From positions 1 through 32,710 of the forward strand of contig JAJCXO010000242.1 of NCBI GenBank assembly GCA_029263395.1: a DNA stretch of 32,710 nucleotides. The letters run 5' to 3'. A program made the position numbers and the translations under genes. This document shows positions 8,301-32,710 of this stretch, one piece after another. Each line of letters starts with the position of its first letter. The stretch's first letter is position 1. The notes under the pieces are model-generated. The model saw nothing but the letters and a program-made list of their open reading frames with translations. It ran no database searches and was not told where the DNA came from. The DNA comes from Acidobacteriota bacterium (GTDB taxonomy: Bacteria; Acidobacteriota; Thermoanaerobaculia; Multivoradales; J023).

Positions 8301-8756
8301 GTGGGCTTGTGGATAGCCGAAATAGATCAGCAAACCGTCGCCGAGGAGCTGTGCCACGTGGCCTTCGAAACGATCGATCACTTCACTCGCAACTTCCTGG
8401 TAAGACATCACGACTTGGCGAAGGGTCTCAGGATCGAGCCGCTCAGCGAGTGCCGTCGATCCAACGAGGTCGCAGAACATCACAGTCAGTTGACGGTTTT
8501 CCGCCGTGTCGGAGATCGGGGAGAGCGATAGGTCGGTGCCTGGTGATTCCTCTGCTTGGTTTGGTTGCGTCGGTCGCGGCGTGTTGCCGCCGGGGACACC
8601 TCGACCAGAGAGCGCGGAGCCGCAGCGCCCACAGAACTTGAACTCCACCGGATTGTCGCTGCCGCATTCTTGGCAGGCAAAGCTCAAACCAGCACCGCAC
8701 TGGCCGCAGAAGCGCATGCCAGGAGGGTTTTCGAAGGCGCAGGAGGTGCAGTTCAT
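5337..8756 (-). CDS. Zinc-ribbon / class III nucleotide cyclase / AAA-type ATPase / TPR regulator
   Basis: A 1139-residue multidomain protein. Four CxxC pairs (C3/C6, C17/C20, C28/C31, C42/C45) form a double zinc ribbon. A class III cyclase homology domain spans about 88-270, with metal-binding Asp96 (FCDLVGST) and Asp140 (LLGDGLLIYF) and transition-state Asn217/Arg221 (PNVAARL). A STAND/predicted-ATPase module follows, with Walker A GEAGLGKS (317-324) and a Walker B-like LVLVVENLQWAD. The C-terminal half is helical and TPR-like. Such proteins are annotated as adenylate/guanylate cyclases with an ATPase sensor. The usual substrate-selecting Lys before the second Asp is not present (Gln/Leu there), so cyclase specificity or activity is uncertain. 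No obvious Shine-Dalgarno precedes the ATG. It heads the four-gene - strand block. Confidence 0.9.
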   Translation of the reverse strand: MNCTSCAFENPPGMRFCGQCGAGLSFACQECGSDNPVEFKFCGRCGSALSGRGVPGGNTPRPTQPNQAEESPGTDLSLSPISDTAENRQLTVMFCDLVGSTALAERLDPETLRQVVMSYQEVASEVIDRFEGHVAQLLGDGLLIYFGYPQAHEDDPRRAVHAALGIVEAIAKLNERRQFTDDLELAVRVGIHTGPVVTGDVGAGGRWERLAVGQTPNVAARLQGLAEANGIVMSATTHTNVEGLFATELLGPQHLKGVSKPIDVYRVLAESGIPERFQAAARTGLPPLVGRQSELAVLQQTYETASRGQQQVVLLSGEAGLGKSRLVHELKLRLGDNLHRWWTCYCSPYHQNSPLYPVIEQATRLFMIPPEASPEEKSAQLEIALGKRGLDLGEVFPLISSLLSLPLLPAYQPSSDSPHRQKEKTLEILRAILLQQAEIEPLVLVVENLQWADPSTLQYLDLLLQTSASKLLLVVTCRPAFQPEWTAECESVELVIDRLAEEQILEVIHHWTHGKTLPRLVLRQVMEKTDGVPLFVEELTKTILESGILVEQAEAYTLPGPLPTFAIPSTLQDSLRARLDRLPPAIKEVAQIGSVIGRRFNFELLDLISPQRSHNLEIALAHLVEAELLLQGGALPVATYRFKHVMIQEATYSSLLKRQRRLYHRRIADTLEDRFVDLCETQPEVVAYHLTEAGQHHRGIDYWQQASQRSFMQGAVLEARAQIDSGLELLDSLPEGADRDQRELALQAAMGAALSTLEGFAAPKVIRAYGRALEICQRSGDSPEQFWILWGLWRFHFVQANLDKALELGHTLLRLATPRRGPATQIAAYFTVGATLYCRGEFAVAHDYLGQAIHLDSLDRTQHYAAQTGEDSGVASLIWDGWCLWFMGHPDQAKKRRTQAQDLARQIAHPFSITYSLIPFLAYYDRDVTGFLKDTEITIAQSLEQGFWFAIPGQLCLGWARATAAANGGSSSEVDSDIGSQGLEELRQGLGATLATGARLHRTQYLLMLAEAAAGLGHLEEADRNLEETFTAIRETGERFFEAEAHRLRGETVLLAGQTAPEPSEQLAEGSFRQALDIARDQGARALQLRAAVSLGRLLQRQGRGDEARGLLAPLLAEHPEGSASADLRDARTLLDDFS

Positions 8757-16919: not shown

Positions 16920-19900
16920 CTAGCTATCCTCGGCCGCCTTCGCCACGGGTCGCTGACAACATTCGAGGCGTTCAAACAGAGCCGCTAGTGCCTGCAGCTT
17001 GATCGGCTTGCTGATGTAGTCGTCCATGCCCGCCTCCAAGCATTTGTCTCGATAACCCCGCACGGCATGTGCGGTCATCGCAACGACCGTCGGGCGCTCC
17101 CCCGGGAACCTCTGGTGAATTCTCCGCGTCGCTTCGAATCCGTCCATCTCAGGCATCTGTACATCCATCAAGACCAGATCGTAGGTCTGTCGCTCCATGG
17201 CTGCGAGAACCTCGGTGCCTGTGCCGACGACATCGCATCGATAACCAAGGTTCTGGAGCAACAGAGAGGTAACCTTTTGATTGACCAGGTTGTCTTCGGC
17301 GAGCAAAACTCGGAGTAAAGATAGAGACTCCGTATCGTCGTTCGCTCGCTGTGATTCGACAACTACCGTCGGCTTTTCGGCAACGACGACCGCAAGTTCG
17401 GTCAAGACCTCGTGCAACTGAGCTGGCTTGATGGGTCGGCTCAATTCCGTGTAACCCTCAGCGCCAGGCGCTACGTTTCTGTTCTCGTTGCGGGCCAACG
17501 GCGTCAAGAGGACCAGCGGGAGATCGCGGTACAAACCCTCCCTGCCCCAGGCTTTGGCCCAGTTGACCTCATCACGGTGGGCGATTTCGCGATCCATGAT
17601 TGCCATGTCGATCCGTTCACCCGAGCTCAGTCGTTCGATCGCTGTCGCCGCCGAGCTGGCCGCAATGGGCAGCATGCCCCAGGCGTCGGCTTGCCGGCTC
17701 AGCAAAAGCCGCATGTCGGCGTTTTCATCAATGATGAGGACTCGCAAGCCGGCCAAGCGTGGGTCGCTGCGATAAAGGAAAGAGCGATCAGGTTCCGTCT
17801 CGGTCTTGGCGACAATCGTGAAATGGAATGTCGAGCCATAGTCTGGAGTGCTGTCAGCCCAGATGCTGCCGCCCATCAGTTCGCTGAGGCGGTTGCAGAT
17901 GGCCAGCCCCAAGCCCGTGCCGCCGTAGCGCCGCGTGGTTGAAGCATCAACCTGGCTGAAGGGTTGAAAGATTGCCCGCAAGCGATCTGGTGGGATACCG
18001 ATCCCGCTATCTCTGATTGAAAATTGAATCTCGTGGCGATCCGGTGCGGTCACCTGGGCCGACACCTCGATGAAGACGCCTCCATGCTCGGTGAACTTCA
18101 CGCCGTTCGAGAGCAAGTTCATCAAAACCTGGCGAGTGCGAACGCTGTCCCCGATCACGGTTTCTGGCGTGTTGTCTTCCATCCAATAACCGAGAGCCAG
18201 CTCCTTGTCGGCTGCGATTGGCGCCACCAAGCTCAGAGCTTCTTCGATCAAGCCGCGGAGGTCGAAAGGAGCCTGCTCCAGTTCCAGCTTCAACGACTCG
18301 ATCTTCGAGAAGTCCAAGATGTCGTTGAGGATCTCGAGCAGAGCATCGCCACTGGCACGAATGGTTTCCAATTGTTCTCGCTGCCTGACTCCGAGATCTG
18401 AAAGTAAGAGCAGTTCGGTCATACCGATGATGCCGCTCATGGGAGTGCGGATCTCATGGCTCATGTGGGCGAGGAAGTCGCCCTTGACCCGACTCGCAGC
18501 TTCGGCTGCCTGAGCCGCCTCTCGGGCTTCCCGAAGGGCGATCTGCCGTTGTTGTTTTCGGCGTGTTGAGGCGAGGAGCCAGATGCCTGCAGCAACTAGG
18601 GCCAGGGCATAAAGAGAATATGCCCACCAGGTTCGCCAAACGGGTGGTGCGATCACAAGGTCTAGACTGACGGCTTCTTCGTTCCAGATGCCGTCGTGGT
18701 TTGCCGCTTTGATCTGCAGCGTATAGGAACCCGGGTCGAGATCCGTGAACGTCACCCGGCGGTGGGTTCCGAGGTCGATCCAATCAATCCAACCTTCGGT
18801 CAGGCCTTCGAGACGGTAGGCATAACGGTTGCGATCGGAGGCCGTAAAGTCGAGTGCAGCGAACTCGAACGAGAAGACATGATCTCTGTAATCTAGCGCG
18901 ACGCTGCTCAGATCCTGCAGCGGTCGATCGAGATCGACGGGTTGCCCGTACTTCAGAAACGAAGTGAGGACTACCGGCGGTCCAGCTGTCTGTCTGATGA
19001 TGCTGTCGGGTTGGAAACCGTTGTAGCCTTCGACACCGCCGAAGTACATCGTGCCGTCATCGCTGCGGAAATGCGCTCCGAAGTTGAACTCATTGGACTG
19101 CAAGCCGTGGCTTGCCTCGTAGTTCCTGATAGTTCCGGTTGCCGGCTCGAAGCGTGAGAGGCCGTAATTTGTGCTCAGCCACAAAGCGTTACTGTCGAGC
19201 TCGGGTTGGATTCCAGAGACGACGCGACTAGGCAGCCCATCGGACTCGGAAAAGCATTCGAAGACAGCGCTGCTGGAACTGGCATCGAGTTGCTCCAGAC
19301 GGCATAAGCCGCCACCCTGGGTGCCGATCCACAACACGCCTGATTCGTCGACTTGGAGGGCGGTGATGGTGTCCACCCTCAAGCTTCCGTTCTGGCGACT
19401 ATTGTGGCTGAACTGGGTGAATACCTGGCGATCGGTATCGAGGCGGTGGAGCCCAGCGCCAAACGTGCCGACCCACAAGGCGCCGTTGGAGTCTTCGGTG
19501 ATGGCACTGACTCGGTCGTTGCCGAGTGTAGTCGGATCATCATTCCGAGCGCGGTAGTGATTGAACGAGCCGGACTCGCGATCAGTTGGCTCGAGCCGGC
19601 TGAGGCCGGCACCGTACGTACCAACCCACAGATCGCCGCGCCGATCCTCGAACAAAGACATCACTCCGTTGTTGCCGAGACTCTCTGGGCGCTCAGGGTC
19701 GTTGATGAAATGGGTGAAATTCTTGGAGTTGGCGTTGAAGCGGTTGAGCCCACCACCCCTCAGGCCAATCCACAGGACCCCGGAGCGATCGTGAAGCAGC
19801 GCGGTCACAAGATCGCTACCCAGGCTCGCGGGATCCTCTGGATCGTGTCGAAAAACCTCGTGAAAGCCGGTCACGGGGTCGCGTCGGTTGAGGCCACCGC

Positions 19901-21128
19901 CGTGGGTGCCGATCCACAGATGATTTTCGGCATCCTGCGCGAAGGCGAGCACTGGATTGGTACTCAAGCCATGTTCGTCATCTGGGTTGTGTCGGTAATG
20001 AGGAAACGACCAGATAGCGGGATTCCACTGGTTGACGCCACCACCCCAGGTGCCGATCCACATCACTTGGCCGCGGTCTTGATAGATCGACATGACCCGG
20101 TCTTGACTGAGGCTAGATGGGTCGGTCGGCGAGTGTTGATATCGATGGAATTGTTGCCGGTCACGATCGAAGAGATTCATGCCACCGTCGGTACCGATCC
20201 ACAACCGCCCGTCCTGGTCTTCAAAGAGAATTCGAACTCGATCTTGACTCAAGCTAAGGCGGTCGGTCGGGTCGTGTAGCAACCGGTGAAAACCGGTGGT
20301 CGGACGATCGAACCGGTTGAGACCTGAGACGGTGCCAATCCACAGATTGCCGGTGCGGTCTTCGAGAATGGAGAGGACGTGGTCGTCGCTCAGGCTAGCG
20401 GGATTATTCGGATCGTGACGGTAACGTATGAAGGTCTTGCTGTCGCGGTCATAGAGATTGAGGCCGCCTTGGGTGCCAACCCAGAGGTTACCGAGTCGGT
20501 CCAAGGCCAAGGCGCGGACCTGATTATCACTGAGGCTCGTCGGATCTGACGCAAGATACTGGAAGCTTTCGATCGAGCTATCCGTTGGGTCGAGGCGATA
20601 GAGGCCACTATCGAAGGTGGCGATCCACAAGCTGTCGTCAGCGTCTTGAAGAAGCGTTTCGACCCGTTCTCCGAAAGTACCTTCCATCGGGTCGTCGGCA
20701 GAAAAGTGGTGGCGGGTGAACCTGCCGGTCTGTTGATTTAGATAGCTCAGTCCGCGCTCAGTGCCTACCCACAAATCCCCGGAGCGATCCTCGAGCAGCG
20801 CCCGGATCGAGCTGTCGGACAGCGTAGCCGGATCGTTGGGGTCGTGCTCGTAAACTACGAAGTCATAGCCGTCGAATCGATTCAGGCCGTCCTGGGTGCC
20901 GAGCCAGACAAAACCACGTCGATCCTGGACGATGGCGGTGACGGTGCTTTGGGATAACCCTTCTTTGATCGAGATCCGGTTGAAGCGGATACTCCGACTG
21001 TTTGCCTCAAGACTTGCTGGTAAGCCAAGGTGTAGGCAGAGTCCACTAACGATGAGGCAACGCGAGAGCCTGCGTGCGACACCCTTGGGGTGTGCGATCG
21101 GCTGATTGCGTCGTGAAAAAAGGTTCAT
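16920..21128 (-). CDS. Hybrid sensor histidine kinase with 14-blade two-component-regulator propeller
   Basis: 1402 residues. An N-terminal export signal (about 20-42) is followed by about fourteen Reg_prop repeats of the form 'D..G.LWVGT..GLNR.D' (about 50-745), which would make two seven-bladed propellers in the periplasm. A Y_Y_Y domain (about 760-830) and one membrane helix (about 833-854) come next. The cytoplasmic part has HisKA with phospho-acceptor His891 (AHMSHEIRTP) and an HATPase with Asn1008, DSGIGIP and GGTGLGL. It ends in two receivers. Receiver 1 (about 1128-1260) is degenerate: it keeps Asp1179 but has Arg1231 where Lys is expected. Receiver 2 (1273-1390) is intact, with Asp1322 and Lys1374. 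The architecture resembles Bacteroidetes-type HTCS kinases but lacks the AraC output. A separate regulator must receive the signal. Propeller sensors of this kind often detect glycans or peptides. Confidence 0.93.
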   Translation of the reverse strand: MNLFSRRNQPIAHPKGVARRLSRCLIVSGLCLHLGLPASLEANSRSIRFNRISIKEGLSQSTVTAIVQDRRGFVWLGTQDGLNRFDGYDFVVYEHDPNDPATLSDSSIRALLEDRSGDLWVGTERGLSYLNQQTGRFTRHHFSADDPMEGTFGERVETLLQDADDSLWIATFDSGLYRLDPTDSSIESFQYLASDPTSLSDNQVRALALDRLGNLWVGTQGGLNLYDRDSKTFIRYRHDPNNPASLSDDHVLSILEDRTGNLWIGTVSGLNRFDRPTTGFHRLLHDPTDRLSLSQDRVRILFEDQDGRLWIGTDGGMNLFDRDRQQFHRYQHSPTDPSSLSQDRVMSIYQDRGQVMWIGTWGGGVNQWNPAIWSFPHYRHNPDDEHGLSTNPVLAFAQDAENHLWIGTHGGGLNRRDPVTGFHEVFRHDPEDPASLGSDLVTALLHDRSGVLWIGLRGGGLNRFNANSKNFTHFINDPERPESLGNNGVMSLFEDRRGDLWVGTYGAGLSRLEPTDRESGSFNHYRARNDDPTTLGNDRVSAITEDSNGALWVGTFGAGLHRLDTDRQVFTQFSHNSRQNGSLRVDTITALQVDESGVLWIGTQGGGLCRLEQLDASSSSAVFECFSESDGLPSRVVSGIQPELDSNALWLSTNYGLSRFEPATGTIRNYEASHGLQSNEFNFGAHFRSDDGTMYFGGVEGYNGFQPDSIIRQTAGPPVVLTSFLKYGQPVDLDRPLQDLSSVALDYRDHVFSFEFAALDFTASDRNRYAYRLEGLTEGWIDWIDLGTHRRVTFTDLDPGSYTLQIKAANHDGIWNEEAVSLDLVIAPPVWRTWWAYSLYALALVAAGIWLLASTRRKQQRQIALREAREAAQAAEAASRVKGDFLAHMSHEIRTPMSGIIGMTELLLLSDLGVRQREQLETIRASGDALLEILNDILDFSKIESLKLELEQAPFDLRGLIEEALSLVAPIAADKELALGYWMEDNTPETVIGDSVRTRQVLMNLLSNGVKFTEHGGVFIEVSAQVTAPDRHEIQFSIRDSGIGIPPDRLRAIFQPFSQVDASTTRRYGGTGLGLAICNRLSELMGGSIWADSTPDYGSTFHFTIVAKTETEPDRSFLYRSDPRLAGLRVLIIDENADMRLLLSRQADAWGMLPIAASSAATAIERLSSGERIDMAIMDREIAHRDEVNWAKAWGREGLYRDLPLVLLTPLARNENRNVAPGAEGYTELSRPIKPAQLHEVLTELAVVVAEKPTVVVESQRANDDTESLSLLRVLLAEDNLVNQKVTSLLLQNLGYRCDVVGTGTEVLAAMERQTYDLVLMDVQMPEMDGFEATRRIHQRFPGERPTVVAMTAHAVRGYRDKCLEAGMDDYISKPIKLQALAALFERLECCQRPVAKAAEDS

Positions 21129-21309: not shown

Positions 21310-23421
21310 CTATTCCTGATTGACCCAGACATTGACCGACATACGGTCGCTGAGATCGCTATCGGTCCACGGGTTGGCGTCCGTCCATGGGTTGGCGTCG
21401 GTCCAAGGATTGGCATCGGTCCACGGATTGGCGTCAGTCCACGGATTGGCGTCGGTCCATGGGTTGGCATCGACGGTGAAATCGGTCCATGGATTGGCAT
21501 CAGTCACCAAATCAGTCCATGGATTGGCGTCGGTCCATGGGTTGGCGGCGAGCTTATAAGAGCCGTCCCAGGGTTGCCCGAAGCCGGCAACGTAGAAGGT
21601 CTCGGTGACCGGATCCCACGCCGCTTGGCCGGTATAGTGTTCTTGATTCGTGAACTCGGCCGCAACGTCGAGACCAGGGTTGGCGCAGCCGGAGGCCAGG
21701 CTGTCAGCGGCCGCCAAGGCGTCGACTAGTCCAGCACCCTGCTGGAACGGGCTATAGGCCGGTGTGCCATCAGCGGCTTCCGCAGCCCGTGCGCTGGCAA
21801 TCAGGCGGCATTTGACGTCCTCTGGTGACAGCGCCGGATTCGCTTCCAACAACAACGCTGCGACGCCGCTGGTGATCGCTGTTGCTGGCGACGTCCCCGA
21901 CATCTCGAAGTAGGGGAAGTCGGAACGTGATCCGGAGTAGACCAAGCCACGAAAGCTGTCCCAGGAAGTCATCCCGAGGATGTGACCACCCGGAGCGACG
22001 ATTTCGGGCTTGATGAAGCGATCGAGAGTGGGACCGGAGGCCGAGAACGACGCCAGAAAGTCATCACTGGCATTGCCAGGGGTGAAGCCGTCCGACAATG
22101 CGCCGACCGTGATGATGTAAGGGTTGTTGCCGGGTACGCCGACCGTCAGTGGATCGGGGCCGGCGTTACCTGCCGCAGCGACCACCACAAGTCCGGATTG
22201 CCACGCCGCCATCACGGCTTGATTCAGCGGATCTTGCCAATAAAATGAGGTCGCTGGACCACTGAAAGCAAGGTTGAGGACGCGGATACCATAGTCTTGC
22301 TGGTACTCGACGGCGAACTCGATTCCGCGAATGACGTCTGCATAGGTGGCGTCGCCCTTGTCGTCGAACGCACGGATGGTCACCAGGTCGGCGCCGGGGG
22401 CGATACCGTTGTAACTGCCAGAAGGTGTTTGCTTGGCGCTCACAGCGACACTTGCGACATGCCCGCCGTGGCCGTTCAAATCTTGTTCGAGCGGGGGATT
22501 GTCGGGTCCGAAATCATCGGTGTCGAGTAGGACGTCGGCGATGGCGTCGTATTGGGCAAGATAACGCCACTGGCCGTTGGCGTTGTAGTGCATGGTGTCG
22601 GAGATCGTCGAGTTGCCAGTGTCGACGATAGCGATGGTGACGCCGGCGCCAGTGATGCCTCGAGCGTGCAGCACATCAGTATTGATGCGGTTGCCGTAGT
22701 GAGTCTCGAGTACCGGGTGGCCGTCATCCAGTACCCCGGCCTCTGGGTACTCGACGGTACAACCCTCGGCGAACTCCAGAAGCAAGGTGTAGGCGTCCGG
22801 GTCTCGGCTGACACTGCTTTGGAATTTGAACTCCAGCGTCACGCTTTCACCAGCTGCTAGTTGGCGGTCTCTGGTGGCGCCTCGCCAGTTGGAGTCGATG
22901 ACCGTAGAAGTTGGCTGGCGCCAGTCCTGCGAGATCTTCTCACCGCCAAGCTTGACCTCTTTGAGCTCATCGGCTGCTGATGGCCAGGTAATCGAAAGAC
23001 TGTCGAGAGTGAGCATTGAGGGGCCGGTGTTGGTAATGGCCCAAGTCACCTTCTTGTTACCGAAGGTGGGCTCACCATCGATCGTCACACCATACGCTCC
23101 ACCCGCGCTGCTCGTTCTGAGTTGGCGGTTGAGATGGATTTTAAGCTCGTTACGGCGTGAGAGTGCCGCCACCTGGTCCTGATCGAGTTGTGCTCCGACC
23201 CCGTTGATGATGCCGAGACGATGCGTCACGTCACCTCCAACCGCTTCTACCAGCTGATAAGCCTGGGTGGCATCCTCACCTTGAACAATGAATGAACGAG
23301 TTTCTCTTGTGGTGTTCGTCGGTCCTTGGGCTAGTGCAGCCCGGCCGACAAGCGAGATCAAAACGAGACAACCGGACCACAAGATGCGGTTGGTACTGTT
23401 GGCGGGTGCTATCCAAGCCAT
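21310..23421 (-). CDS. Secreted subtilisin-like S8 peptidase with nine NPWTD repeats (paralogue 1)
   Basis: 703 residues. A signal peptide (about 10-31, ending in RAALA) is followed by an I9-like prodomain ('RSFIVQGEDATQAYQLVE ... LGIINGVGAQL') and an immunoglobulin-like stretch. The S8 domain has Asp267 (IAIVDTGNS), His318 (NGHGGHVASVA; Gly where HGTHV usually has Thr), Asn419 (AAAGNAGP) and Ser511 (MSGTSPATA). The C-terminus carries nine copies of NPWTD between residues 627 and 687, mostly in 6-residue steps (ANPWTD), with spacers LVTD and FTVD after copies 2 and 3. It ends in a short cap, VNVWVNQE. The start is ATG at 23421 with AGAAGGAG 9 nt upstream; an in-frame ATG at 23505 would hide the signal peptide. 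It has its own sigma-54-type promoter and terminator. The repeat tail is unlike a known sorting signal that I recognise. Confidence 0.93.
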   Translation of the reverse strand: MAWIAPANSTNRILWSGCLVLISLVGRAALAQGPTNTTRETRSFIVQGEDATQAYQLVEAVGGDVTHRLGIINGVGAQLDQDQVAALSRRNELKIHLNRQLRTSSAGGAYGVTIDGEPTFGNKKVTWAITNTGPSMLTLDSLSITWPSAADELKEVKLGGEKISQDWRQPTSTVIDSNWRGATRDRQLAAGESVTLEFKFQSSVSRDPDAYTLLLEFAEGCTVEYPEAGVLDDGHPVLETHYGNRINTDVLHARGITGAGVTIAIVDTGNSTISDTMHYNANGQWRYLAQYDAIADVLLDTDDFGPDNPPLEQDLNGHGGHVASVAVSAKQTPSGSYNGIAPGADLVTIRAFDDKGDATYADVIRGIEFAVEYQQDYGIRVLNLAFSGPATSFYWQDPLNQAVMAAWQSGLVVVAAAGNAGPDPLTVGVPGNNPYIITVGALSDGFTPGNASDDFLASFSASGPTLDRFIKPEIVAPGGHILGMTSWDSFRGLVYSGSRSDFPYFEMSGTSPATAITSGVAALLLEANPALSPEDVKCRLIASARAAEAADGTPAYSPFQQGAGLVDALAAADSLASGCANPGLDVAAEFTNQEHYTGQAAWDPVTETFYVAGFGQPWDGSYKLAANPWTDANPWTDLVTDANPWTDFTVDANPWTDANPWTDANPWTDANPWTDANPWTDANPWTDSDLSDRMSVNVWVNQE
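21361..21543 (-). repeat. NPWTD-coding tandem repeat block, paralogue 1
   Basis: Nine degenerate 18-bp (occasionally 30-bp) units encoding ANPWTD. Codons vary synonymously between units (for example CCA/CCG context GTCCATGGGT versus GTCCACGGAT on the + strand). The amino acids are constant, which points to selection on protein rather than recent slippage. Confidence 0.92.
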
Positions 23422-23471
23422 GAAAGCGAACTCCTTCTGCGTGAATCTCAATGAAGACCGTAAGGAAGGTA

Positions 23472-23487
23472 AGCAAGCCAGGTGCCA
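23472..23487 (-). promoter_or_regulatory. Sigma-54 (-24/-12) promoter of NPWTD subtilase 1
   Basis: On the - strand the sequence is TGGCACCTGGCTTGCT. The consensus is TGGCACG-N4-TTGCW, and only one fixed position differs. The GG and GC doublets have the exact spacing. It lies 51 bp before the start codon, predicting a leader of about 40 nt. Confidence 0.75.
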
Positions 23488-23723
23488 GACTTGGGCCAGC
23501 CACAAGTCGAGCGAGTTGGTCTACAAAGCTGTGAAGGCGAGAGGGCAGCCGATAAGCGGGACGAGCGATTCAGCCTGGTGCGGCTCGGAATCTCCGAGAT
23601 CGGTGCTGGGCAGGAAGGCGAGATTGTGGGCTCGGTTTATTTCTTCGAGTATTAAGAAGTACCCTGCCGGCCTGCGATCTGGTGGAACAATCTCGCTGAC
23701 GTACTTGGTATGGATACAAGGTA

Positions 23724-23738
23724 GCCAACAAAATTGGC
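23724..23738. promoter_or_regulatory. Dyad GCCAA-N5-TTGGC, candidate activator site 1
   Basis: The sequence GCCAACAAAATTGGC has a perfect 5-bp inverted repeat around 5 nt. It sits about 240 bp upstream of the sigma-54 promoter of paralogue 1, within the normal distance for enhancer-binding activators. Confidence 0.5.
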
Positions 23739-23755
23739 AGTTCAGTTCGAGAATC

Positions 23756-23770
23756 GCCAACTAACTTGGC
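23756..23770. promoter_or_regulatory. Dyad GCCAA-N5-TTGGC, candidate activator site 2
   Basis: The sequence GCCAACTAACTTGGC has the same half-sites and spacing as the first dyad. The centres are 32 bp apart, about three helical turns, so both would face the same side of DNA. Confidence 0.5.
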
Positions 23771-23782
23771 AGGCGACGTGAA

Positions 23783-23813
23783 GCCACCAACACACCGGAG
23801 GTGCGCTGGTGGC
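23783..23813 (-). terminator. Hairpin after NPWTD subtilase 2, probable terminator
   Basis: A 14-bp stem (two G-T pairs) around a 3-nt loop, 25 bp past the stop of paralogue 2. No T-run follows, so termination may need Rho, or the hairpin may protect the message end. Confidence 0.55.
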
Positions 23814-23838
23814 CAGCCATCCCGCCAATATGGAGCGC

Positions 23839-26040
23839 CTATTCCTGATCGACCCAGATGTTGATCGCCATCCCCTCGCTCATGTCGCTGTCGGTCCAAG
23901 GGTTGGCGTCGGTCCATGGATTAGCGTCAGTCCATGGGTTGGCATCGGTCCACGGATTGGCATCGGTCCATGGATTGGCGTCGGTCCATGGGTTGGCATC
24001 GACGGTGAAGTCAGTCCACGGATTGGCGTCAGTAATGAGGTCGGTCCACGGGTTGGCGTCGGTCCATGGGTTGGCATTACCACTGTAGGAACCATCCCAA
24101 GGCTGTCCGAAGCCCTCAATGTAAACCGTCTCGGTCACCGGATCGTAGGCTGCTTGGCCGATGAAATGCTCGCTACCGGCGAGGTCGGCATCTACATTGA
24201 GGCCCGGGTTGGCGCAGCCTGCTTCGCTGCTGCTGACGGCACCGGCAGCATCCACCAAGCCGGCGCCCTGTTGAAAGGGGCTGTAAGCCGGGGAGCCGTC
24301 GCCAGCTTCGGCAGCACGTGCACTAGCGACCAGACGACACTTGACGTCTTCGGGAGACAAGCTCGGATCGGCTTCGAGCATCAGTGCCACGACACCGCTG
24401 ACGATGGCGGTGGCGGGTGAGGTCCCCGACATCTCGAAATAGGGGAAGTCAGAACGCGAGTCAGCGTAAACCAGGCCGCGGAAGCTATCCCACGGAATCA
24501 TGCCTAGAATGTGACCACCTGGAGCCACGATTTCCGGTTTGACAAAGCGGTCGATGGTCGGGCCAGCGGCCGAGAAGGAAGCCAGAATATCGTCGGTGCC
24601 GTCGTCCGGTGTGAAGCTGTCCGACATCGCTCCGACAGTGATGGCATAAGGATTGTTCCCGGGTACCCCGACCGACAACGGGTCGGGGCCACCGTTGCCG
24701 GCGGCGGTGACGACGACAATGCCAGCCTGCCAAGCTGCCATCACGGCCTGATTGAGGGGATCCTCCCAGTAGAAGGACACCGCTGGACCGCTAAAGGCGA
24801 GGTTGAGTACCTGGATGCCATACGCGTCTTTGAAGTCGACCGCAAACTCGATGCCGCGGATGACATCGGCATAGGTGCCGTCACCCTTGTCGTCGAATGC
24901 GCGGATGGTCACGAGGTCGGCGCCGGGAGCGATGCCGTTGTAGTTGCCCGAATCTGTCTGCTTGGCGCTCAATGCAACACTGGTCACATGGCCACCGTGG
25001 CCGTTCAAGTCTTGCTCGGCGGGAGGGTTCTCGGGCCCAAAATCATTGGTGTCGAGTAACACGTTGGAGACGGCGTCATACTGGGCAAGGTATCGCCATT
25101 GCTTGTTGACGTTGTAGTCGATGGTGTTGGAAACCATTGAGTTGCCGGTGTCGACAAAGGCAATGGTCACCCCTGCGCCGGTGATGCCATCCGTGTGAAG
25201 CGCGTCTGCATTGGTGCGGGTTGGGTAGTCTGTTTCCAGTACCGGGAAGCCGTCGTCTAGTGGATTAGGATTGAAGGTTGCCGAGCAGCCTTCAGTAAAC
25301 GTGACGGTCAGCGAGTAGTCGTTCGGGTTGACACTGGCGTCGTTCTCAAATTTGAACTTGAGTTTGCCCTTCGCATCTGCTGCGATGATGCGATCTCCCG
25401 GCTCACCCTGCCAGTCTGAATTGATCACGGTAGCTGGGGCAGGCTGATTCGAAGTGAAGATCTTGTTGGCACCTAACTTGACCCACTTCAGTTGTCCGTT
25501 GGCTGCTGGCCACTCGAGAGAGATACTGTCAATGGTGATCGGTGTTGTAGCTCGGTTCTTGATCTTCCATTTCACAACTTGATTCTGGACTTTGATCGGA
25601 ACACGAATTCTGGCAGAGCATAGATCGGGCACTAAGTCCGAATCCGAATCCGAATCCGAATCTGAGTCCGAGTCTGAGTCCGAGTCCGAGTCCGAGTCCG
25701 AGTCTGAGTCCGAGTCTGAATCCGAGTCACCACCTCTGTCATGGGCGCTGGTGCGGACCGTCAAGTTCTTGGAAATGCGCAGCACGTCGAGTTGACGCAA
25801 CTCGGTCAGCTGTTCGTCAGTGAGCAAGGCTGCGACACCGTGGATGATGTCGAGCTCATGTGTGATTTCTCCGCCTACGCCCTGAACGATGTCGGCAGCT
25901 TCGGTGCTATCGTGAGCCTGAACGATGAAAGACTGTGCGGTCTGCTCGGCCGAATGTTCCGAGAGAGCGATCGAGGATACGGCGAATAAAACTAGAAGGA
26001 AGAGTCCGGCGAAAATTGCGGCAGATCGGATTATCGACAT
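23839..26040 (-). CDS. Secreted subtilisin-like S8 peptidase with nine NPWTD repeats and a Ser-Asp tract (paralogue 2)
   Basis: 733 residues. A signal peptide (about 1-26, MSIIRSAAIFAGLFLLVLFA...) is followed by an I9-like prodomain. A pure D(SD)15 tract fills residues 105-135. The S8 domain has Asp297 (IAFVDTGNS), His348 (NGHGGHVTSVA), Asn449 and Ser541 (MSGTSPATA). The C-terminal NPWTD block covers 657-717 with nine copies, and the cap is INIWVDQE. From the LDDG motif to the end (473 residues) it aligns with paralogue 1 without a gap at a constant offset of 30. The two thus arose by duplication, and most length change is in the prodomain linker where the Ser-Asp tract sits. TGAGGAG lies 5 nt before the ATG at 26040. 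It has its own sigma-54-type promoter. Confidence 0.94.
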   Translation of the reverse strand: MSIIRSAAIFAGLFLLVLFAVSSIALSEHSAEQTAQSFIVQAHDSTEAADIVQGVGGEITHELDIIHGVAALLTDEQLTELRQLDVLRISKNLTVRTSAHDRGGDSDSDSDSDSDSDSDSDSDSDSDSDSDSDSDLVPDLCSARIRVPIKVQNQVVKWKIKNRATTPITIDSISLEWPAANGQLKWVKLGANKIFTSNQPAPATVINSDWQGEPGDRIIAADAKGKLKFKFENDASVNPNDYSLTVTFTEGCSATFNPNPLDDGFPVLETDYPTRTNADALHTDGITGAGVTIAFVDTGNSMVSNTIDYNVNKQWRYLAQYDAVSNVLLDTNDFGPENPPAEQDLNGHGGHVTSVALSAKQTDSGNYNGIAPGADLVTIRAFDDKGDGTYADVIRGIEFAVDFKDAYGIQVLNLAFSGPAVSFYWEDPLNQAVMAAWQAGIVVVTAAGNGGPDPLSVGVPGNNPYAITVGAMSDSFTPDDGTDDILASFSAAGPTIDRFVKPEIVAPGGHILGMIPWDSFRGLVYADSRSDFPYFEMSGTSPATAIVSGVVALMLEADPSLSPEDVKCRLVASARAAEAGDGSPAYSPFQQGAGLVDAAGAVSSSEAGCANPGLNVDADLAGSEHFIGQAAYDPVTETVYIEGFGQPWDGSYSGNANPWTDANPWTDLITDANPWTDFTVDANPWTDANPWTDANPWTDANPWTDANPWTDANPWTDSDMSEGMAINIWVDQE
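23890..24072 (-). repeat. NPWTD-coding tandem repeat block, paralogue 2
   Basis: The layout is the same as in paralogue 1: nine NPWTD units, with spacers LITD and FTVD after units 2 and 3. Synonymous differences between the two blocks show they are not the result of very recent copying. Confidence 0.92.
25637..25726 (-). repeat. Hexanucleotide repeat encoding the Ser-Asp tract
   Basis: Fifteen units of TCCGAA/TCCGAG/TCTGAG/TCTGAA (+ strand view) encode alternating Ser and Asp in paralogue 2. The hexamer array is slippage-prone in multiples of 6 bp and always stays in frame. Ser-Asp tracts in other bacteria form flexible stalks, sometimes glycosylated (known); the role here is inferred as a linker. 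Confidence 0.93.
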
Positions 26041-26450: not shown

Positions 26451-29400
26451 CTACTCCTCGAGGAGGAAGGAGGTGGGGGGGCCGCAAGGCACTGTCGCAT
26501 CGTCGACGTAAGCGGCGACACTCCATACTCCGTAAAGGGAGCTACGTACGATCGATGTACCTGCGACAGGCCACGCGACTGTCAGCGATGACGTCGAGGT
26601 TTCCAAAGACAAAGGCTGTAGTGTGTCCACGGGGAGGGGATGTGGGAAACCTTCGATGCGGCGGAGTGCTTCGCGGAGTGAGGAGTCGCCGCTGAAGGGT
26701 TGCGTCAGGACTTGATACAGATGGCCTTGGGGCGTCGACAGTTCGAGCCGCAGGAGATGATGAGAATCCATCGCCTCCGCGAATCGAACGTGCAGATCCA
26801 GATCGAGGATGCTGGTGACTGGGAACCCAGAGAAGCTCGGGGCGTTGGAGGTCCAGGCAGAGAGATCTCCGGACTCGAAATCGTCTGAGAATATTGCCTG
26901 TGGTGAGCCCACTCGGACTTCGCAGGCAGTCGAGATGTTGGTGGACTTGGCGGCCCTAGGGACTGCCAGCGCTTCAGGCGTGGTTTCGATCCGTGGCGTC
27001 TGTGATCTGGCTTGCGAGCCGCGTCGGGATCCACCCGGCAGCGGAACTTCGGCGGCGTAAACTCGGCCATCTTCAGAGCCGACATAAAGCACTCCGCTCG
27101 ATACGTCGAGTGCAGGACTGCCGATCGCCGCGCTGCCATTCCCCAAGGTTACTGAAGTGAACGTCGGGCTGGCACCCGAGACATCGAGTTCGTACAATCG
27201 GCCGTCACTGGCGCCAATCCAGGCCAGCGGTGAGCTGATCGACACCAGCGGGACAGAAGGGGCAGGAATCGAGACCACCGACCAGTCCAGACTGGCACTG
27301 GTCCCGCCGTCGAGGATCGACCAGACCGTGTTGGTGGTACTGAAGATCAATTCCGAAGAGCCGAACCGCGGCAGGACATACCCTTTGACCGGGCCGTCGC
27401 CGGTGGTGAAGGGAATGCTCCAGAGGTTGTTGCCGGTCACCGCGTCGAGGGCGTGGACCTGTCCGGAGTTGGTGCCAACATAGACTTTCTCGCCATGCAG
27501 AATCGGGCTGCCGTCGATATCGCCGAGGGCGCGGGACCATAGCAGACTGGCGCTTCCGGCTCCGAAGCCGAGGCACCAGACAGTGGCTGCGCTACCCCCC
27601 GGATTGGCACGGCTGGCGAAGTAGACGCGGTTGTTGAAGATATCCACCGAGGCGCTGGCGGAGATGATGCCGATGCCACTGGCCCCGCCGCCGTTGTCGA
27701 ATGTCCAGGCGAGGCTGCCGTCCGCCAGATTCAGACCGTAAAAGGCGCTGTCGCCCAGCGCGTTGCGCATGCCGGCCAGGATTAGATCCTGGGCGCCCCC
27801 GAACACCGTGAAGATGCCGGCCGGCGCCGCTTGGATTTGGCCGCCGAGGTCTGGACTCTGCCAGAGCAGAGCACCCGATGTGGCGTCGACGGCGTACACG
27901 CGATGGTCTTGGGAGCCCAGGAAGGTCACCTTGGATGCTGCACCAAGAGAGATCGGGACAACCGCGGGTCGTTCTTGTGCCGGACCGTTCATCGCCATGG
28001 GCGTCCAAGTGTCGGGCCAGGTTCCTGCGTCACCAACCGTCTCCATCGAATGGACAACACGATCGTTGGAGACCCCATAAACCGAACCGATACCCGGGGG
28101 AGTCATCGCCGACGCACCGGTCGAGTATGCCCATTGCACCGCACCGGACGTGTCGAAGGGCCGTGCTGATACGTGCCGGGCGGCAGACATGACGCCTGAA
28201 CCATTGTCGACGAAGGCAGTGTAGTAGTAGGTGGTGCCGTTAGTGAGGGTTGTGTGCATCACGTTGTCGGCCCCGCCTGTCGTCCCCGCTTGGTTGGTGA
28301 CAATTACACCGTCGGTGGGGTCGGCGGGGAAGGTGTCGGTGCGATAGCGGATCAGCGTCGAGTCATAAGCCGGGCCGGTCGGGTTGAGCCATTCGATCTC
28401 GACCTGTCCGTCGGTGGCGGTGGCAGTCAAGAATTGAACTGCTGGCGGCGCCACGGTACACGACGCTGGAACGGTCGCTTCGAGCCGCACGTTGTCGACG
28501 ATCCAGCCGTCGTCAAGGCTCGAGAAACGATCGCCACCGTGGTTCCATGCCAGCCACACTCGCTGACCGGCGTAAGCGGTCAGATCAACGGTCTCTGGAA
28601 TGCATCCAATCGAGTCGGCAACATAGGCCGGCACACCGGGCCAAGGGTGGCAAAAGAAAGTGCTGTTGAAGACAGTGCCGGGATAACCGCCGATTGGCGT
28701 CAAGGGGGTGAAGTTGGGCCAGTTGCCCACACTGATCAGCAGCCGGCCACCGTCCCAATCCTGGCTCGACGATTCGAAGTCGTAGTCATGGTCGAAACTC
28801 AAGGTGATCGACGTCGCCCCTGCCGGCAAGACAATGCCACCGTCCGAAAAAGGAGGTCCAGCGGAGGGCTGCAGCCCCAAAACCGCCAAGCCATCGTTGA
28901 AGTCGCTGTAGATCGGGCTGGCGCTAGCATCGTTCGAAGCCAGGGCGTTGCCGCCGCAGAAACCGGTCTCCGGTCGGTACCAATCGTTGCTGTAGTTGAC
29001 GGGGCCGGTGCCGCTAGGTGGTGGCGCGCAGGAGCCGGACACGTAAGTGTTGAGAGGCGTGACCCCGAGTTGCCACAAGTCCCCGGGGGACTGGTTGCCA
29101 TCGAAATCATCGGCGAACAGCAAGACATTGGCATCTCCGCCAGCGGTGCCTGCGAGCTCGAGCGTGTTGCCGTCGGTATTGCCGTTGCGGCACGGACCGT
29201 CACTGCCGAGGGCGGCGTCTTCAGCGCGCACTGAGTAGTGGTAGGTGATGCCGCTAGTAACCGAAGTGTCATCGAAGGACGTTCCGGTGACACAGGCTGC
29301 CAGTAGGTTGGCCGGTCCGGGCGTGAAGTCTGGGCTGGTGGAACGGTAGACGTTGTAGACCATCGGTCCACCCGGGCAGTTGGCATTGCCATTCGACCAC

Positions 29401-32387
29401 GAGACTCTCAAGCTACAGCCGCCACCTGAGGTGGTCGGTGCAACCGACGTCACCCCGTTGAAAGACGGCGCCAACGTGCAGTCTCCCTGAGCAGTGGTGG
29501 TTGCCTCGCTGGAGTTTGCCGACTCGCAGCCCGGATTGTTCACTGCGGTGACGACGTAGTAGTAGGTGGTATCGCCGGAGACGCCGGTATCGGTGAACGT
29601 AGTCGAAGCCAATCCAGACGCGATTCGTTGGTAGGGGCCGCTCGTCGTCGTCGCTCGATAGAGACTGTAGGTATCGGCAGCCACTGAGTTCCACGAAAGA
29701 TCGATCCGATTGGAACCGTTGGGGGTGGCGGTGAGCCCGGTTGGTGCGGCGGGAGTTGCGCAGGGTGGGGCCAGCACCCCAGAGACCACCAGCGCGTAGG
29801 GTTGGACGGTAGTACCGGGCTGGCCATTTCCTGGGACACTCCAGCCCGAAACGCGAACCGTCCAGTTGCCGACTTGGGGGGTGCTGACGGTGGTCTGTTC
29901 AACGTTGTTCGTCCGATCTGCGGATCCGATCAGGCGATCAATGCCGTTCGGGAAGTAGGTGGTGCTACTGGGCGAGATGACCGTCAAGTCGAGATCATTG
30001 ATCAGTTGGGTACCCGCGCCGAGAGTTGGGTAGGGGTCGGTCCACACCAAGGTGGCGATCAACGGATCTGCGGACGAGGCCACAGGCACGACCAGGTCGA
30101 CGAATAGACCCGTGGTAAGCCCTACCGTGGCGTCGTGAATCTCCATCTCTCTCGCTGGATCGTGACCGTAGCCCGAGCCGGGGAATAAGGCGGACTCGAG
30201 ATCGAGGCGGCCATACCCTTCGGCGTTATTCGGTAGCGTGCTCCCAGTGTCCCATGCCGGCGGGAGCTCCTGGGTTGGGCCGACACCGTACTGCCCGGGC
30301 GTCATATCCCATGCACCGTTGAGCAACGTTGCTTTGACCAGGGCAGCCGACGGGTTGAAGCCATTGCTCGGTACTGGGATGTCTTGGGTGATGCGGCTAC
30401 CTTCCGCGTGCCAACCATCGGCGTAATATTGGCGGGTCAAGACGCTGGCGCCAGCAGCCAACGGGTTGGCCATCGAGGTGCCACCGAGCACGACGTAATA
30501 AGGCCGAAGGGCTGGCGGAACCTGACAGGTGCCCCACTGTTGATACGACTGAAATCGGTTGGTGCGGGTCGAGACGATTGCGATGCCCGGGGCCACCAGG
30601 TCAGGTTTGATCCGGCCGTCATCGGTCGGGCCGCGGGAAGAGAAGGCGCCGACGCCAGAGGCGTTGTCTGCCATCAGGTCCGGGAACAAGGGTGCTGCCG
30701 AGAAGTTACTCGAACTGAACCAGCCCCAAGTCTTCTGTTCGATGCCGTTCGACGAGGTGCAATCCCCTTCCGGGACTTCGTAAACAAAGTCCGGTCGATA
30801 GTTCTCCGAGGCCCCGACTACAATTGCGTTCTTGGACGTGCCGGGGGCGCCGATGGCGTCGGCATCGACGATCCCATCAACCGGGCTGAGATCTCGTGAT
30901 CGGTTGCCCGCGGTGTAGGTGATCACCATGTCTGGATGACCCCACGTGAACTCGTCCACTTCCTGGGAGTCGGCGTTGTAGGCGCCGAACAGGGGGGTTC
31001 CCCAGGAGTTGCAGTGCACTCTAGCGCCGTCGTCGTAGGGAGGTTGGAAAAGCGTGTTGAGGTCGCCTGGAATACCACCAAGGGCGCCGTTGCCGTCCAG
31101 AATCGACTGAAAGACCAAGTTGGCCTTGGGAGCGGTGCCGGCATAACTCGACGCCGGGTAGTCGTCGATCGACGGATCCGAACCGGAGCGTATGCCGTTG
31201 CCGACTAGAGAGCCCGCGACGTGAGTACCGTGACCACCAGCCAACGTTTGATTGTCGTCCCAGGTGGCGCGTCCGAGAGCGTAGGTCTCGATGACTCGCA
31301 GCGGATTGGTCGCCGAGCCCTGTTCGCCGAAGTCATGGTGGAGCGTCGCCAGATCACCGGTCGAGAGCCCCGTGTCGGAGACCGCTGCGATCTGGCCTTC
31401 ACCACGGATGCCGCGATCCCAGACATCCTCCACATCCATCAAAGGGCCCGCAGCGCCGTTACGACCGGTCGCCAGATTGTCGGAAGATCGTGCGACGTTG
31501 TTGTGCAGCTCGTAGCCGGCAAAACGTTCGACCCACAGACAACCAGGCATCGTCAACAGCTTGCGGGCTTCGGCGGCCGATCCCGCCAACCGAGCTTTGA
31601 AGCCGCGCCGCCGTTCGAAGATGTTGTGAACATCGAGCCCGGTCTCGGCCAGCTCTGCTCGGAGTCTCGCGAGGGTTTCGACGCTGTTGGTCTCGCCGTC
31701 TTGTGCTTCGAAGAGGGCTGTCAGCCGTAGCGCATGATTGGGGTTGGTTTCGATGATGAAGTCGAGCTTGGGGGAGATCCGCCAGGCTGGTTGATAGAGG
31801 CCCAGCCAGAAGACTTCGGGTCGCTGCCCCAGGAGTTGATACTCGGCACGCGACAACCGGACCAAGTAGGCGAACCGCGGGATGTAGCCCAAGACCGGAA
31901 TGTCGAGTTGCTCGAGCTGCGACCTTAACGTGAGCTGTTCCTTGGGCGACTGCGCTTGAACGATGAACAGGTCACTGTTGCGGTCAGCAAACGCTTCGCG
32001 GACCAGGTCGGGTGGGAACGATTCGAGCTCTGGCGTAAGGAATTGGCGAGACTCGGAGCTGTCTCCATCGACTAGTTCCGAGGTTGCAAATCGTATGGCC
32101 GCAAGCACGATCATCGGAGATTCTGGATCCGTGCCGAGGGATGGGAATCGTGCTGAGAATGGCTGGCTGTTCCGCCAATTGTCCGGGATGGTGATTGTGT
32201 CGACGTCCGGCATGCCGGCGTTTGGTGGGCCGGCTTCTTGAGCTTCGACGGTGCCTGGCCAGGAGACGGTGCCTGGCCAGGAGACGGTGCCCGGCCAGGA
32301 GACCAAAGCCACCAAGAGCCATCTACCGATGGATCGTCGCGAAGACGTCCAACGGTTACATTGCAGGGTTGTTTGAACCCTTGTCAT
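26451..32387 (-). CDS. Giant secreted S8 peptidase with FN3-like and PQQ-type propeller modules
   Basis: 1978 residues. The N-terminal hydrophobic stretch (RWLLVALV, 22-29) is followed by SWPGTV three times (30-47) and then 'EAQEA'. A propeptide-like region leads into an S8 domain with Asp338 (AVSDTG), His386 (GGHGTHVAG), Asn495 (TAGNRS) and Ser638 (GGTSMANPLAAG). Next come a proprotein-convertase-like domain (about 760-880), fibronectin type III-like domains (about 885-970, 985-1085 and 1350-1440) and a jelly-roll-like region (about 1100-1340). A beta-propeller with PQQ-type repeats ('VYVGTNSGQVHALDAVTGNNLW') spans about 1450-1830. The C-terminus contains 'FSDDFESGDLSAW'. The role is probably extracellular protein degradation with substrate or surface binding by the accessory domains. 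The ATG at 32387 has AAGGG about 6 nt upstream. Confidence 0.93.
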   Translation of the reverse strand: MTRVQTTLQCNRWTSSRRSIGRWLLVALVSWPGTVSWPGTVSWPGTVEAQEAGPPNAGMPDVDTITIPDNWRNSQPFSARFPSLGTDPESPMIVLAAIRFATSELVDGDSSESRQFLTPELESFPPDLVREAFADRNSDLFIVQAQSPKEQLTLRSQLEQLDIPVLGYIPRFAYLVRLSRAEYQLLGQRPEVFWLGLYQPAWRISPKLDFIIETNPNHALRLTALFEAQDGETNSVETLARLRAELAETGLDVHNIFERRRGFKARLAGSAAEARKLLTMPGCLWVERFAGYELHNNVARSSDNLATGRNGAAGPLMDVEDVWDRGIRGEGQIAAVSDTGLSTGDLATLHHDFGEQGSATNPLRVIETYALGRATWDDNQTLAGGHGTHVAGSLVGNGIRSGSDPSIDDYPASSYAGTAPKANLVFQSILDGNGALGGIPGDLNTLFQPPYDDGARVHCNSWGTPLFGAYNADSQEVDEFTWGHPDMVITYTAGNRSRDLSPVDGIVDADAIGAPGTSKNAIVVGASENYRPDFVYEVPEGDCTSSNGIEQKTWGWFSSSNFSAAPLFPDLMADNASGVGAFSSRGPTDDGRIKPDLVAPGIAIVSTRTNRFQSYQQWGTCQVPPALRPYYVVLGGTSMANPLAAGASVLTRQYYADGWHAEGSRITQDIPVPSNGFNPSAALVKATLLNGAWDMTPGQYGVGPTQELPPAWDTGSTLPNNAEGYGRLDLESALFPGSGYGHDPAREMEIHDATVGLTTGLFVDLVVPVASSADPLIATLVWTDPYPTLGAGTQLINDLDLTVISPSSTTYFPNGIDRLIGSADRTNNVEQTTVSTPQVGNWTVRVSGWSVPGNGQPGTTVQPYALVVSGVLAPPCATPAAPTGLTATPNGSNRIDLSWNSVAADTYSLYRATTTSGPYQRIASGLASTTFTDTGVSGDTTYYYVVTAVNNPGCESANSSEATTTAQGDCTLAPSFNGVTSVAPTTSGGGCSLRVSWSNGNANCPGGPMVYNVYRSTSPDFTPGPANLLAACVTGTSFDDTSVTSGITYHYSVRAEDAALGSDGPCRNGNTDGNTLELAGTAGGDANVLLFADDFDGNQSPGDLWQLGVTPLNTYVSGSCAPPPSGTGPVNYSNDWYRPETGFCGGNALASNDASASPIYSDFNDGLAVLGLQPSAGPPFSDGGIVLPAGATSITLSFDHDYDFESSSQDWDGGRLLISVGNWPNFTPLTPIGGYPGTVFNSTFFCHPWPGVPAYVADSIGCIPETVDLTAYAGQRVWLAWNHGGDRFSSLDDGWIVDNVRLEATVPASCTVAPPAVQFLTATATDGQVEIEWLNPTGPAYDSTLIRYRTDTFPADPTDGVIVTNQAGTTGGADNVMHTTLTNGTTYYYTAFVDNGSGVMSAARHVSARPFDTSGAVQWAYSTGASAMTPPGIGSVYGVSNDRVVHSMETVGDAGTWPDTWTPMAMNGPAQERPAVVPISLGAASKVTFLGSQDHRVYAVDATSGALLWQSPDLGGQIQAAPAGIFTVFGGAQDLILAGMRNALGDSAFYGLNLADGSLAWTFDNGGGASGIGIISASASVDIFNNRVYFASRANPGGSAATVWCLGFGAGSASLLWSRALGDIDGSPILHGEKVYVGTNSGQVHALDAVTGNNLWSIPFTTGDGPVKGYVLPRFGSSELIFSTTNTVWSILDGGTSASLDWSVVSIPAPSVPLVSISSPLAWIGASDGRLYELDVSGASPTFTSVTLGNGSAAIGSPALDVSSGVLYVGSEDGRVYAAEVPLPGGSRRGSQARSQTPRIETTPEALAVPRAAKSTNISTACEVRVGSPQAIFSDDFESGDLSAWTSNAPSFSGFPVTSILDLDLHVRFAEAMDSHHLLRLELSTPQGHLYQVLTQPFSGDSSLREALRRIEGFPHPLPVDTLQPLSLETSTSSLTVAWPVAGTSIVRSSLYGVWSVAAYVDDATVPCGPPTSFLLEE
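32248..32301 (-). repeat. 18-bp triplication encoding SWPGTV in the leader of the giant subtilase
   Basis: Three 18-bp units (ACGGTGCCTGGCCAGGAG on the + strand) with a single T-to-C change in the third unit. They encode three SWPGTV copies directly after the hydrophobic core of the signal peptide, so copy number changes the length of the export signal without shifting frame. Confidence 0.93.
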
Positions 32388-32531: not shown

Positions 32532-32710
32532 CTCAGTCTTATACAAACTCAGTTCTATACAAACCTAGTCTTATACCAGCACAGCCTGATTTCAGCACAG
32601 TCTGATTTCAGCACAGTCTGATTTCAGCACAGTCTGATTTCAGCACAGTCTGATTTCAGCACAGTCTGATTTCAGCACAGTCTGATTTCAGCACAGTCTG
32701 ATTTCAGCAC
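32532..32710. repeat. 16-bp tandem repeat array running off the window edge
   Basis: Seven perfect 16-bp units GCACAGTCTGATTTCA (32595-32706) and the start of another at 32707 are preceded by one unit with a single change (32579-32594). Three diverged 15-16-bp units of the form CTCAGTCTTATACAAA precede that (32532-32578). There is no spacer variation, so it is not a CRISPR array. The array gets more uniform towards the window edge. Confidence 0.95.

Follow-up and report, generated by a model that had tools for sequence, protein, structure and literature searches.

Sorting signals at the C-terminus of proteins include LPXTG, PEP-CTERM, GlyGly-CTERM, and the C-terminal domain of the type IX secretion system (T9SS CTD), and hexapeptide repeats (Hexapep) form left-handed β-helices. 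Fungal multi-copy peptide pheromone precursors, such as yeast MF-alpha-1 and fission yeast P-factor, consist of tandem near-identical short units whose copy number varies between close relatives and for which a receptor is implied (available parts of PMC5850478 and PMC6342294). In Bacteroidetes, hybrid two-component systems (HTCS) join Reg_prop, Y_Y_Y, HisKA, HATPase, and receiver domains in one protein (available part of PMC3243724). Here, we analyzed a stretch of 32,710 nucleotides from an Acidobacteriota bacterium (contig JAJCXO010000242.1, assembly GCA_029263395.1), referred to as the window, in which two adjacent subtilase genes, P0001 and P0002, end in arrays of a six-residue tryptophan (Trp) word, ANPWTD, next to the gene of a propeller-type sensor kinase. 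Both proteins resemble the secreted subtilases of PF00082 in their S8 domain with D, H, and S residues, their hydrophobic start, and their prodomain-like N-terminal block, but differ from them by the C-terminal array and a WVxQE cap. The sensor has the same five domains as an HTCS; it differs in that its gene neighbor is a tailed protease and in that sensors at other loci have GGDEF, GGDEF-EAL, or no detectable output domain. At the level of the genes, tandem near-identical units and variable copy number are common to the tailed subtilases and the pheromone precursors, whose implied receptor would have a candidate counterpart in the sensor encoded nearby in some clades and missing in others; the tailed subtilases differ in carrying their units on a protease. 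The six-residue period is shared with Hexapep, from which the array differs by the Trp in every unit, by the lack of any Pfam Hexapep match among 34 tails, and by the absence of a predicted fold. We tentatively read the tailed subtilase as the protease half of a protease-receptor pair in which the array would be the recognized element, a reading whose chance we place somewhat below even.

P0001 and P0002 lie on the minus strand and match PF00082 (E 1.2e-46 and 1.8e-43; 159.8 and 149.3 bits, the gathering cut-off being 21.8), in agreement with the original prediction, made from the sequence, of tandem paralogous subtilases. The interval 21310-24072 comprises the P0001 gene, the intergenic stretch, and the P0002 array. 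Residues D297, H348, and S541 are invariant in a 10-row alignment and presumably form the catalytic triad, as judged from S8 motifs. P0001 and P0002 are predicted to be secreted subtilases of one S8 subfamily that is marked by the C-terminal Trp-word array. The nine NPWTD units, the irregular spacers after units 2 and 3, and the short cap described earlier are present in both proteins: each array consists of two units, a four-residue spacer, one unit, FTVD, and six units, and is followed by the cap, which terminates in WVNQE or WVDQE (WV-x-QE pattern). Tandem Repeats Finder reports 18-bp repeats over most of both arrays. P0002 additionally carries a long Ser-Asp repeat between its prodomain region and its S8 domain; this repeat is also found in its orthologue from a sister species, and P0001 lacks it.

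All 18 ANPWTD units of the window are identical in amino acids while many of their codons differ. When neighboring units of the regular six-unit run were compared, each window array showed 0 amino-acid changes and 13 synonymous codon changes. Between the two arrays, 61 of 62 aligned residues are identical, and among 52 degenerate codons for the same residue 32 are identical and 20 differ. Because the residues agree while the codons differ, the window array is selected as protein, as had been proposed. Elsewhere in the two enzymes, the S8 domains are 80% identical and the prodomain regions 38%. The orthologues from the sister species (JAJCXQ010000801.1, L039) have 6 and 3 NPWTD units and lack both spacers, and regular runs elsewhere reach 32 units; the earlier claim that number and spacing are conserved therefore does not hold. 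This variation between close relatives (9 and 9 units in the window, 6 and 3 in the sister species) is as in the pheromone precursors. The S8 domains of the two orthologue pairs are 89% and 93% identical, compared with 80% between the paralogues, so the gene duplication probably predates the species split. Interlocus gene conversion was considered as the sole cause of the identical window arrays and rejected. The synonymous identity of the paralogues is 0.62 in the array, only moderately above the 0.49 of the S8 domain; recent conversion is thus unnecessary, and an older conversion is possible.

Relatives were collected with P0002 as query and with a 34-row tail alignment (A1). The search profile takes in the stretch preceding the array; it favors S8 relatives and may overlook arrays carried by unrelated proteins, even though many profile matches covered the array part alone. 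The Trp-word tail spans about a hundred related subtilases in three phyla. Within the window's order, 23 of 72 genomes have it (E 0.001; two of them, G005 and G025, without an array open reading frame (ORF)), as do 27 of 396 sampled genomes of the window's phylum (1e-10; at most 11 candidates scored per genome), 10 of 298 genomes of Anaerolineae (the class of G447 and L045), and 17 of 295 genomes of the Colwellia order (the order of G446 and L044). Among all loci fetched, 109 of 113 distinct ORFs with a hexad array match an S8 hidden Markov model. The remaining four are shorter than 250 residues, too short for the scan, and by inspection are pieces of tailed S8 genes: three lie at the edge of a contig and hold the C-terminal part, and the fourth, L079, is the tail of an S8 gene that seems to have undergone a frameshift. 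In a quickly computed tree of S8 domains (118 of 119 rows, one being dropped for its length), the tailed enzymes fall together in a group of 98 rows with an SH-aLRT support of 90, below the tool's star; 20 untailed rows are placed outside it. Five rows inside the group are untailed by our rule; L169, L045, L044, and L129 possess Trp or Phe arrays whose spacing or regularity differs, and the fifth is L079. The group splits into subclades of 70 and 28 rows, and a SINxWVxQE-like cap is mostly kept in the larger one and not in the other.

The word is mostly uniform inside one gene and different between genes; relatives use GFLWSD, GFVWSD, GYMWSG, GYAWPD, AYIWSR, AFAWNG, RNPWLD, TSPWTD, and more. 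We counted 91 distinct arrays under a rule that requires four or more Trp spaced by 6 and units with a mean identity of 0.6, so that regular runs under 4 are uncounted. Their consensus positions are mostly G/A, F/Y/I/V, L/I/A/P/V, W, S/N/A/T, and D, with D two residues after W in 81 of 91 words; the W and part of the uniformity arise by construction, since the counting rule demands them. The unit number ranges from 3 to 32 across the arrays of the window species, its sister, and the family. Irregular tails also occur (for example, L014, L034, and L043), as do periods of 7, 11, and 12 residues in Anaerolineae and the Colwellia order. The longest regular run, 32 consecutive Trp units (SALWSD/GALWSD), is in an S8 protein at L176. 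Contigs of other genomes end within Trp arrays (L280, L284, L286, and L287), which probably means that counts of tailed genes are too low in fragmented assemblies. Three of these had been considered as stand-alone arrays without a protease and were rejected, as L280, L284, and L286 are ORFs cut by the contig end. Also rejected was a weak match adjoining a sensor (G000:C23), in which the Trp frame lies inside an unrelated repeat whose likelier, opposite-strand frame reads ESNQGL units. A sequence-blind search of the window's own genome for four Trp codons every six codons was non-discriminating (39+41 sites against 53+45 in the reversed control).

Comparison of neighboring units, pooled over the 91 arrays, yielded 516 nonsynonymous codon changes and 922 synonymous ones, which is about 0.18 of the ratio expected under neutrality; 16 arrays have at least 5 synonymous changes and no amino-acid change. 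Among the 13 arrays given singly, L247 has a value of 1.2; its first units are irregular and its ASAWGD units show few synonymous changes, a pattern that resembles the one left after recent homogenization. The comparison of nonsynonymous with synonymous change between units called for by the original prediction thus lies far below 1 in the window and in the pool, and strict constraint on the word is true for the window and the pooled family, not for every member. The word itself turns over between lineages. Four relatives in the Colwellia order with S8 domains 75-83% identical use TSPWTD, ANGWSD, AIGWND, and ASAWGD, and the N-terminal parts of their sensors are 45-58% identical. GFLWSD and NPW-type words persist through S8 divergence of 20-50%. 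Below an S8 identity of 0.75, words are more alike within a genome (0.51-0.60) than between genomes (0.32-0.42), the between-genome pairs being a random sample that includes distant lineages and is unmatched for relatedness. One genome, G000, carries two unlike words, ANPWTD and GFLWSD/GFVWSD. A receptor-specific word for each locus was rejected, because in pairs below the same S8 identity the gap between same-locus words (0.61-0.69, n=16) and words of other loci in the same genome (0.51-0.60, n=171) is too small.

The association with sensors is the evidence on which the proposed protease-receptor pair mainly rests. The product of the sensor gene downstream of P0001 has, besides the domains named above, a hydrophobic segment near residue 836. 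In four genomes (G000, G002, G006, and G010), a Y_Y_Y sensor lies within 8 kb of 11 of 12 tailed S8 genes and of 2 of 74 untailed ones (Fisher 3.7e-11, a value that overstates the weight because it treats genes of the same cluster as independent). Split S8 matches were counted once, and five second-half rows were left out of these counts. With G016 and G029, which are tailed, and G004 and G011, which have no tail, the numbers for the eight genomes together are 11/23 and 2/102. Of the 49 sensors in a further 14 Acidobacteriota genomes, 17 are within 8 kb of a tail, compared with 0.75 expected at random; two weak tail places, G008:C47 and G050:C128, are left out of this count. In the Colwellia order, a sensor is located 2.4-2.7 kb from the tail match in all 10 genomes tested of the 17 with a tail, where chance predicts 0.29 and each genome encodes 2 to 24 sensors. 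Reg_prop-like ORFs within 6 kb were scored by a motif-count test. They were found at 14/14 loci of families f1 and f5, at 7/8 long-flank loci of the Colwellia order, and at 1/1 locus of Oceanococcus. A Reg_prop-like ORF also accompanies 16 of 18 tail matches at the short-flank Colwellia-order loci (L241-L258). In several clades the protease and sensor genes are mostly on the same strand, with the protease gene mostly first.

Pfam Reg_prop is present in 13 of 15 neighbor proteins scanned, the exceptions being L106:2994-7268, which was rejected as a sensor (it carries Glyco_hydro_3, beta-lactamase, and NamZ domains), and the neighbor at L045, a propeller-less kinase. The partner outputs are a kinase with or without a receiver, GGDEF, GGDEF-EAL, or none found; since the outputs differ, the propeller is the constant part among these partners. 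Anaerolineae show other neighbors. At 15 loci from 10 genomes, counted with no control, a histidine kinase is encoded directly downstream at 4 (L045, L262, L265, and L267) and a class III cyclase-AAA-TPR protein is adjacent, in either orientation, at 5 (Table 1); by the same tests, 6 of the 15 have neither. The cyclase-AAA-TPR neighbors go with seven-residue words, and in an NCBIfam scan the one at L260 matches the TOMM_kin_cyc and HaaT TPR models below their cut-offs.

Sensor adjacency in several lineages suggests that the tail may be read as a signal or docking tag. In the protease-receptor pair that we favor, the array would be recognized by the receptor, in the window the propeller kinase. 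Recognition might take place while the array is attached, in which case the sensor would report whether the protease is present or what state it is in, or alternatively after cleavage of the array into separate copies. Having many units would increase the avidity or the dose, and in each lineage the word would drift in step with its receptor. A more specific proposal, which we consider unlikely, is bacterial communication or self-sensing: the subtilase would carry a multi-copy peptide signal as its array and release or display the copies, and an adjacent cognate receptor would read the lineage-specific Trp word, this receptor being a propeller kinase, a propeller diguanylate cyclase, a plain kinase, or a cyclase-TPR protein depending on the lineage. 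Were the array a ligand, this would be a peptide-signaling design in which enzyme and signal are one polypeptide, and its lineage-specific words could be read directly from genomes. The link to sensors also offers a test of the ligands of Reg_prop propellers in Acidobacteriota and the Colwellia order.

A number of observations weigh against the proposed pair. No Y_Y_Y sensor was found within 8 kb of the 11 tailed genes of G016 and G029, and in the 14 Acidobacteriota genomes a sensor is near only 23 of 61 tailed genes. By the 6-kb motif test, a Reg_prop-like ORF is present at 13 of 34 loci and missing at 21 of 34 in family f3 with G063 (13 loci with short flanks or a missing ORF set aside), present at 4 and missing at 16 of 20 loci in other Acidobacteriota classes (3 set aside), and found at 0 of 14 loci in Anaerolineae (1 set aside). 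Adjacency may be partly inherited because the tailed S8 enzymes are essentially one clade, and this common descent, together with the many tailed genes without a sensor neighbor, weakens the linkage argument. Sensor divergence is no proof of co-evolution, because sensors diverge fast where the word is kept too: L246/L249 and L252/L254 retain their words at S8 identities of 84-86%, with sensor parts 61-64% identical. Words common to the loci of one genome fit a single common partner or DNA homogenization. Nonsynonymous changes outnumber synonymous ones in 29 of the 91 arrays, and 9 reach or exceed their own neutral ratio. Reg_prop sensors of Bacteroides recognize oligosaccharides (available part of PMC3243724). 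The protease-receptor reading rests mainly on gene context, and the counter-evidence from the 29 arrays and from sensor divergence weakens its co-evolution detail, not the context.

The main rival is an adhesive or anchoring tail, in which the single Trp of each word would bind a glycan, lipid, or envelope partner with avidity and the sensor would merely control expression of the protease. We regard this as a real, though minority, possibility. It would account for the Trp of every unit (itself demanded by the counting rule), the frequent D two residues later, the copy number of 3 to 32, the many tailed genes without a sensor nearby, and the 29 arrays whose remaining positions change residue more often than they change codon silently. 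However, a generic sticky tail need not preserve all other residues, whereas the window fixes all six positions in 18 units, and the collected tails are on one S8 clade only and on no other secreted proteins, within the reach of a profile that favors S8 relatives. The same restriction to one S8 clade, the recurring cap in the larger subclade, and the absence of a predicted fold for the array would suit a regulatory or maturation tail of the enzyme, that is, a pseudosubstrate, autoinhibitor, or folding aid trimmed by the protease. This explanation predicts neither the sensor linkage nor the change of word among S8 domains 75-83% identical, and judging by the conserved N-terminal block a prodomain is already there; we hold it to be improbable.

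A sorting signal read by a secretion or surface-anchoring machine would fit the C-terminal position and the greater likeness of words within genomes than between them, subject to the unmatched sampling noted above. Such signals normally occur on many types of protein, whereas all Trp arrays collected belong to one S8 clade; the C-terminus lacks a hydrophobic segment and matches no NCBIfam sorting model, and G000 uses two unlike words. This role is quite improbable. The 18-bp units with their variable number, the contig breaks within arrays of other genomes, and the 9 arrays at or above the neutral ratio are what slippage of a DNA repeat without protein function would leave. Against this stand synonymous changes far above the neutral share, both in the 91 pooled arrays and in the two window arrays, and the keeping of arrays in three phyla. 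For the window the slippage explanation is already contradicted by the codon pattern, and overall it is scarcely credible.

Database searches bore out the earlier impression that the block does not correspond to a described repeat for sorting, anchoring, or binding. Among 34 tails, no Pfam domain was above its curated cut-off; the SOK model reached E 0.0042 in 1 of 34, and no Hexapep match was obtained. A single distant array reached 20.1 bits with LED_rpt (PF20854), whose cut-off is 59. In NCBIfam, the 78-residue window tail hit 0 families at E 1, and the 34 tails matched no sorting model, with a single stray match of one member to a collagen-like adhesin model (E 0.0068). A PDB sequence search returned no match for the tail; relatives of the S8 subtilase in the PDB include 3afg. 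No hydrophobic C-terminal helix is present in the two window proteins, whose best 19-residue hydropathy means over the last 90 residues are -0.29 and -0.16. Structure prediction of the tail, proposed earlier as a check, was run with AlphaFold2 and a 10-row alignment and predicted no fold: the tail alone had a mean predicted local distance difference test score (pLDDT) of 40.6, with blocks of 37-41. Full-length P0002, with the same alignment depth, gave a mean pLDDT of 55.5, a predicted template modeling score of 0.55, and array blocks of 20-27, a poor model in which even parts of the S8 domain have low confidence. With no confident array fold and no hydrophobic C-terminal segment, the glycan-binding tail, self-assembling stalk, and removable export signal suggested earlier are each possible roles. 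The W-x-D of the array words presumably resembles the motif of tri-residue cyclophane peptides, a candidate that was considered and set aside; in the third position of the motif, Gly is found in several arrays (GYMWSG and AFAWNG). Among the literature matches listed, subscription papers being outside the coverage, no paper deals with Trp-word tails or the protease-sensor pair, and text matches to NPWTD have titles on wound dressings or surgery. The Trp-word array and the protease-sensor pairing appear to be undescribed, the subtilase and the propeller sensor being already known. That no family model was found for a Trp repeat carried by some hundred subtilases collected from three phyla is a gap in protein annotation.

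Table 1. Features of the window and of loci in other genomes (the latter marked by locus; positions are those of each locus).
Feature	Coordinates	Strand	Remarks
P0001, tailed S8 subtilase	21310..23505	-	731-residue ORF; Peptidase_S8 match; order: signal-peptide-like start, prodomain, beta-rich insert, S8 domain, W array, cap (prodomain and insert assigned via homology to P0002)
P0001, likely start	23421	-	ATG; signal-peptide-like beginning
P0001 array	21361..21546	-	nine ANPWTD units, spacers LVTD and FTVD
P0001 C-terminal cap	21313..21360	-	SDLSDRMSVNVWVNQE
P0002, tailed S8 subtilase with Ser-Asp repeat linker	23839..26040	-	733-residue ORF
P0002 array	23890..24075	-	nine ANPWTD units, spacers LITD and FTVD
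P0002 C-terminal cap	23842..23889	-	SDMSEGMAINIWVDQE
Sensor gene, proposed partner	16920..21128	-	1402 aa; 181 bp downstream of P0001
Ser-Asp repeat of P0002	25635-25728
Neighboring S8 protein	26451-32387	-	1978 aa
SWPGTV repeat	32247-32303
16-bp tandem repeat	32577-32710		CAGCACAGTCTGATTT
L260, cyclase-AAA-TPR neighbor	620-4207
L261, cyclase-AAA-TPR neighbor	1536-5003
L263, cyclase-AAA-TPR neighbor	3256-6798
L264, cyclase-AAA-TPR neighbor	3033-6608
L266, cyclase-AAA-TPR neighbor	1407-5408
L176, S8 protein with the longest regular run	4905-6959
L280, contig end within Trp array	5568-5816
L284, contig end within Trp array	3-263
L286, contig end within Trp array	8173-8430
L287, contig end within Trp array	3329-5119

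Beyond P0002, the window encodes another S8 protein, with S8, fn3, and PQQ propeller domains. Near its N-terminus, SWPGTV occurs three times, with one Trp per six residues and 97% matches between the copies in DNA. A 16-bp tandem repeat of 8.4 copies reaches the contig end.

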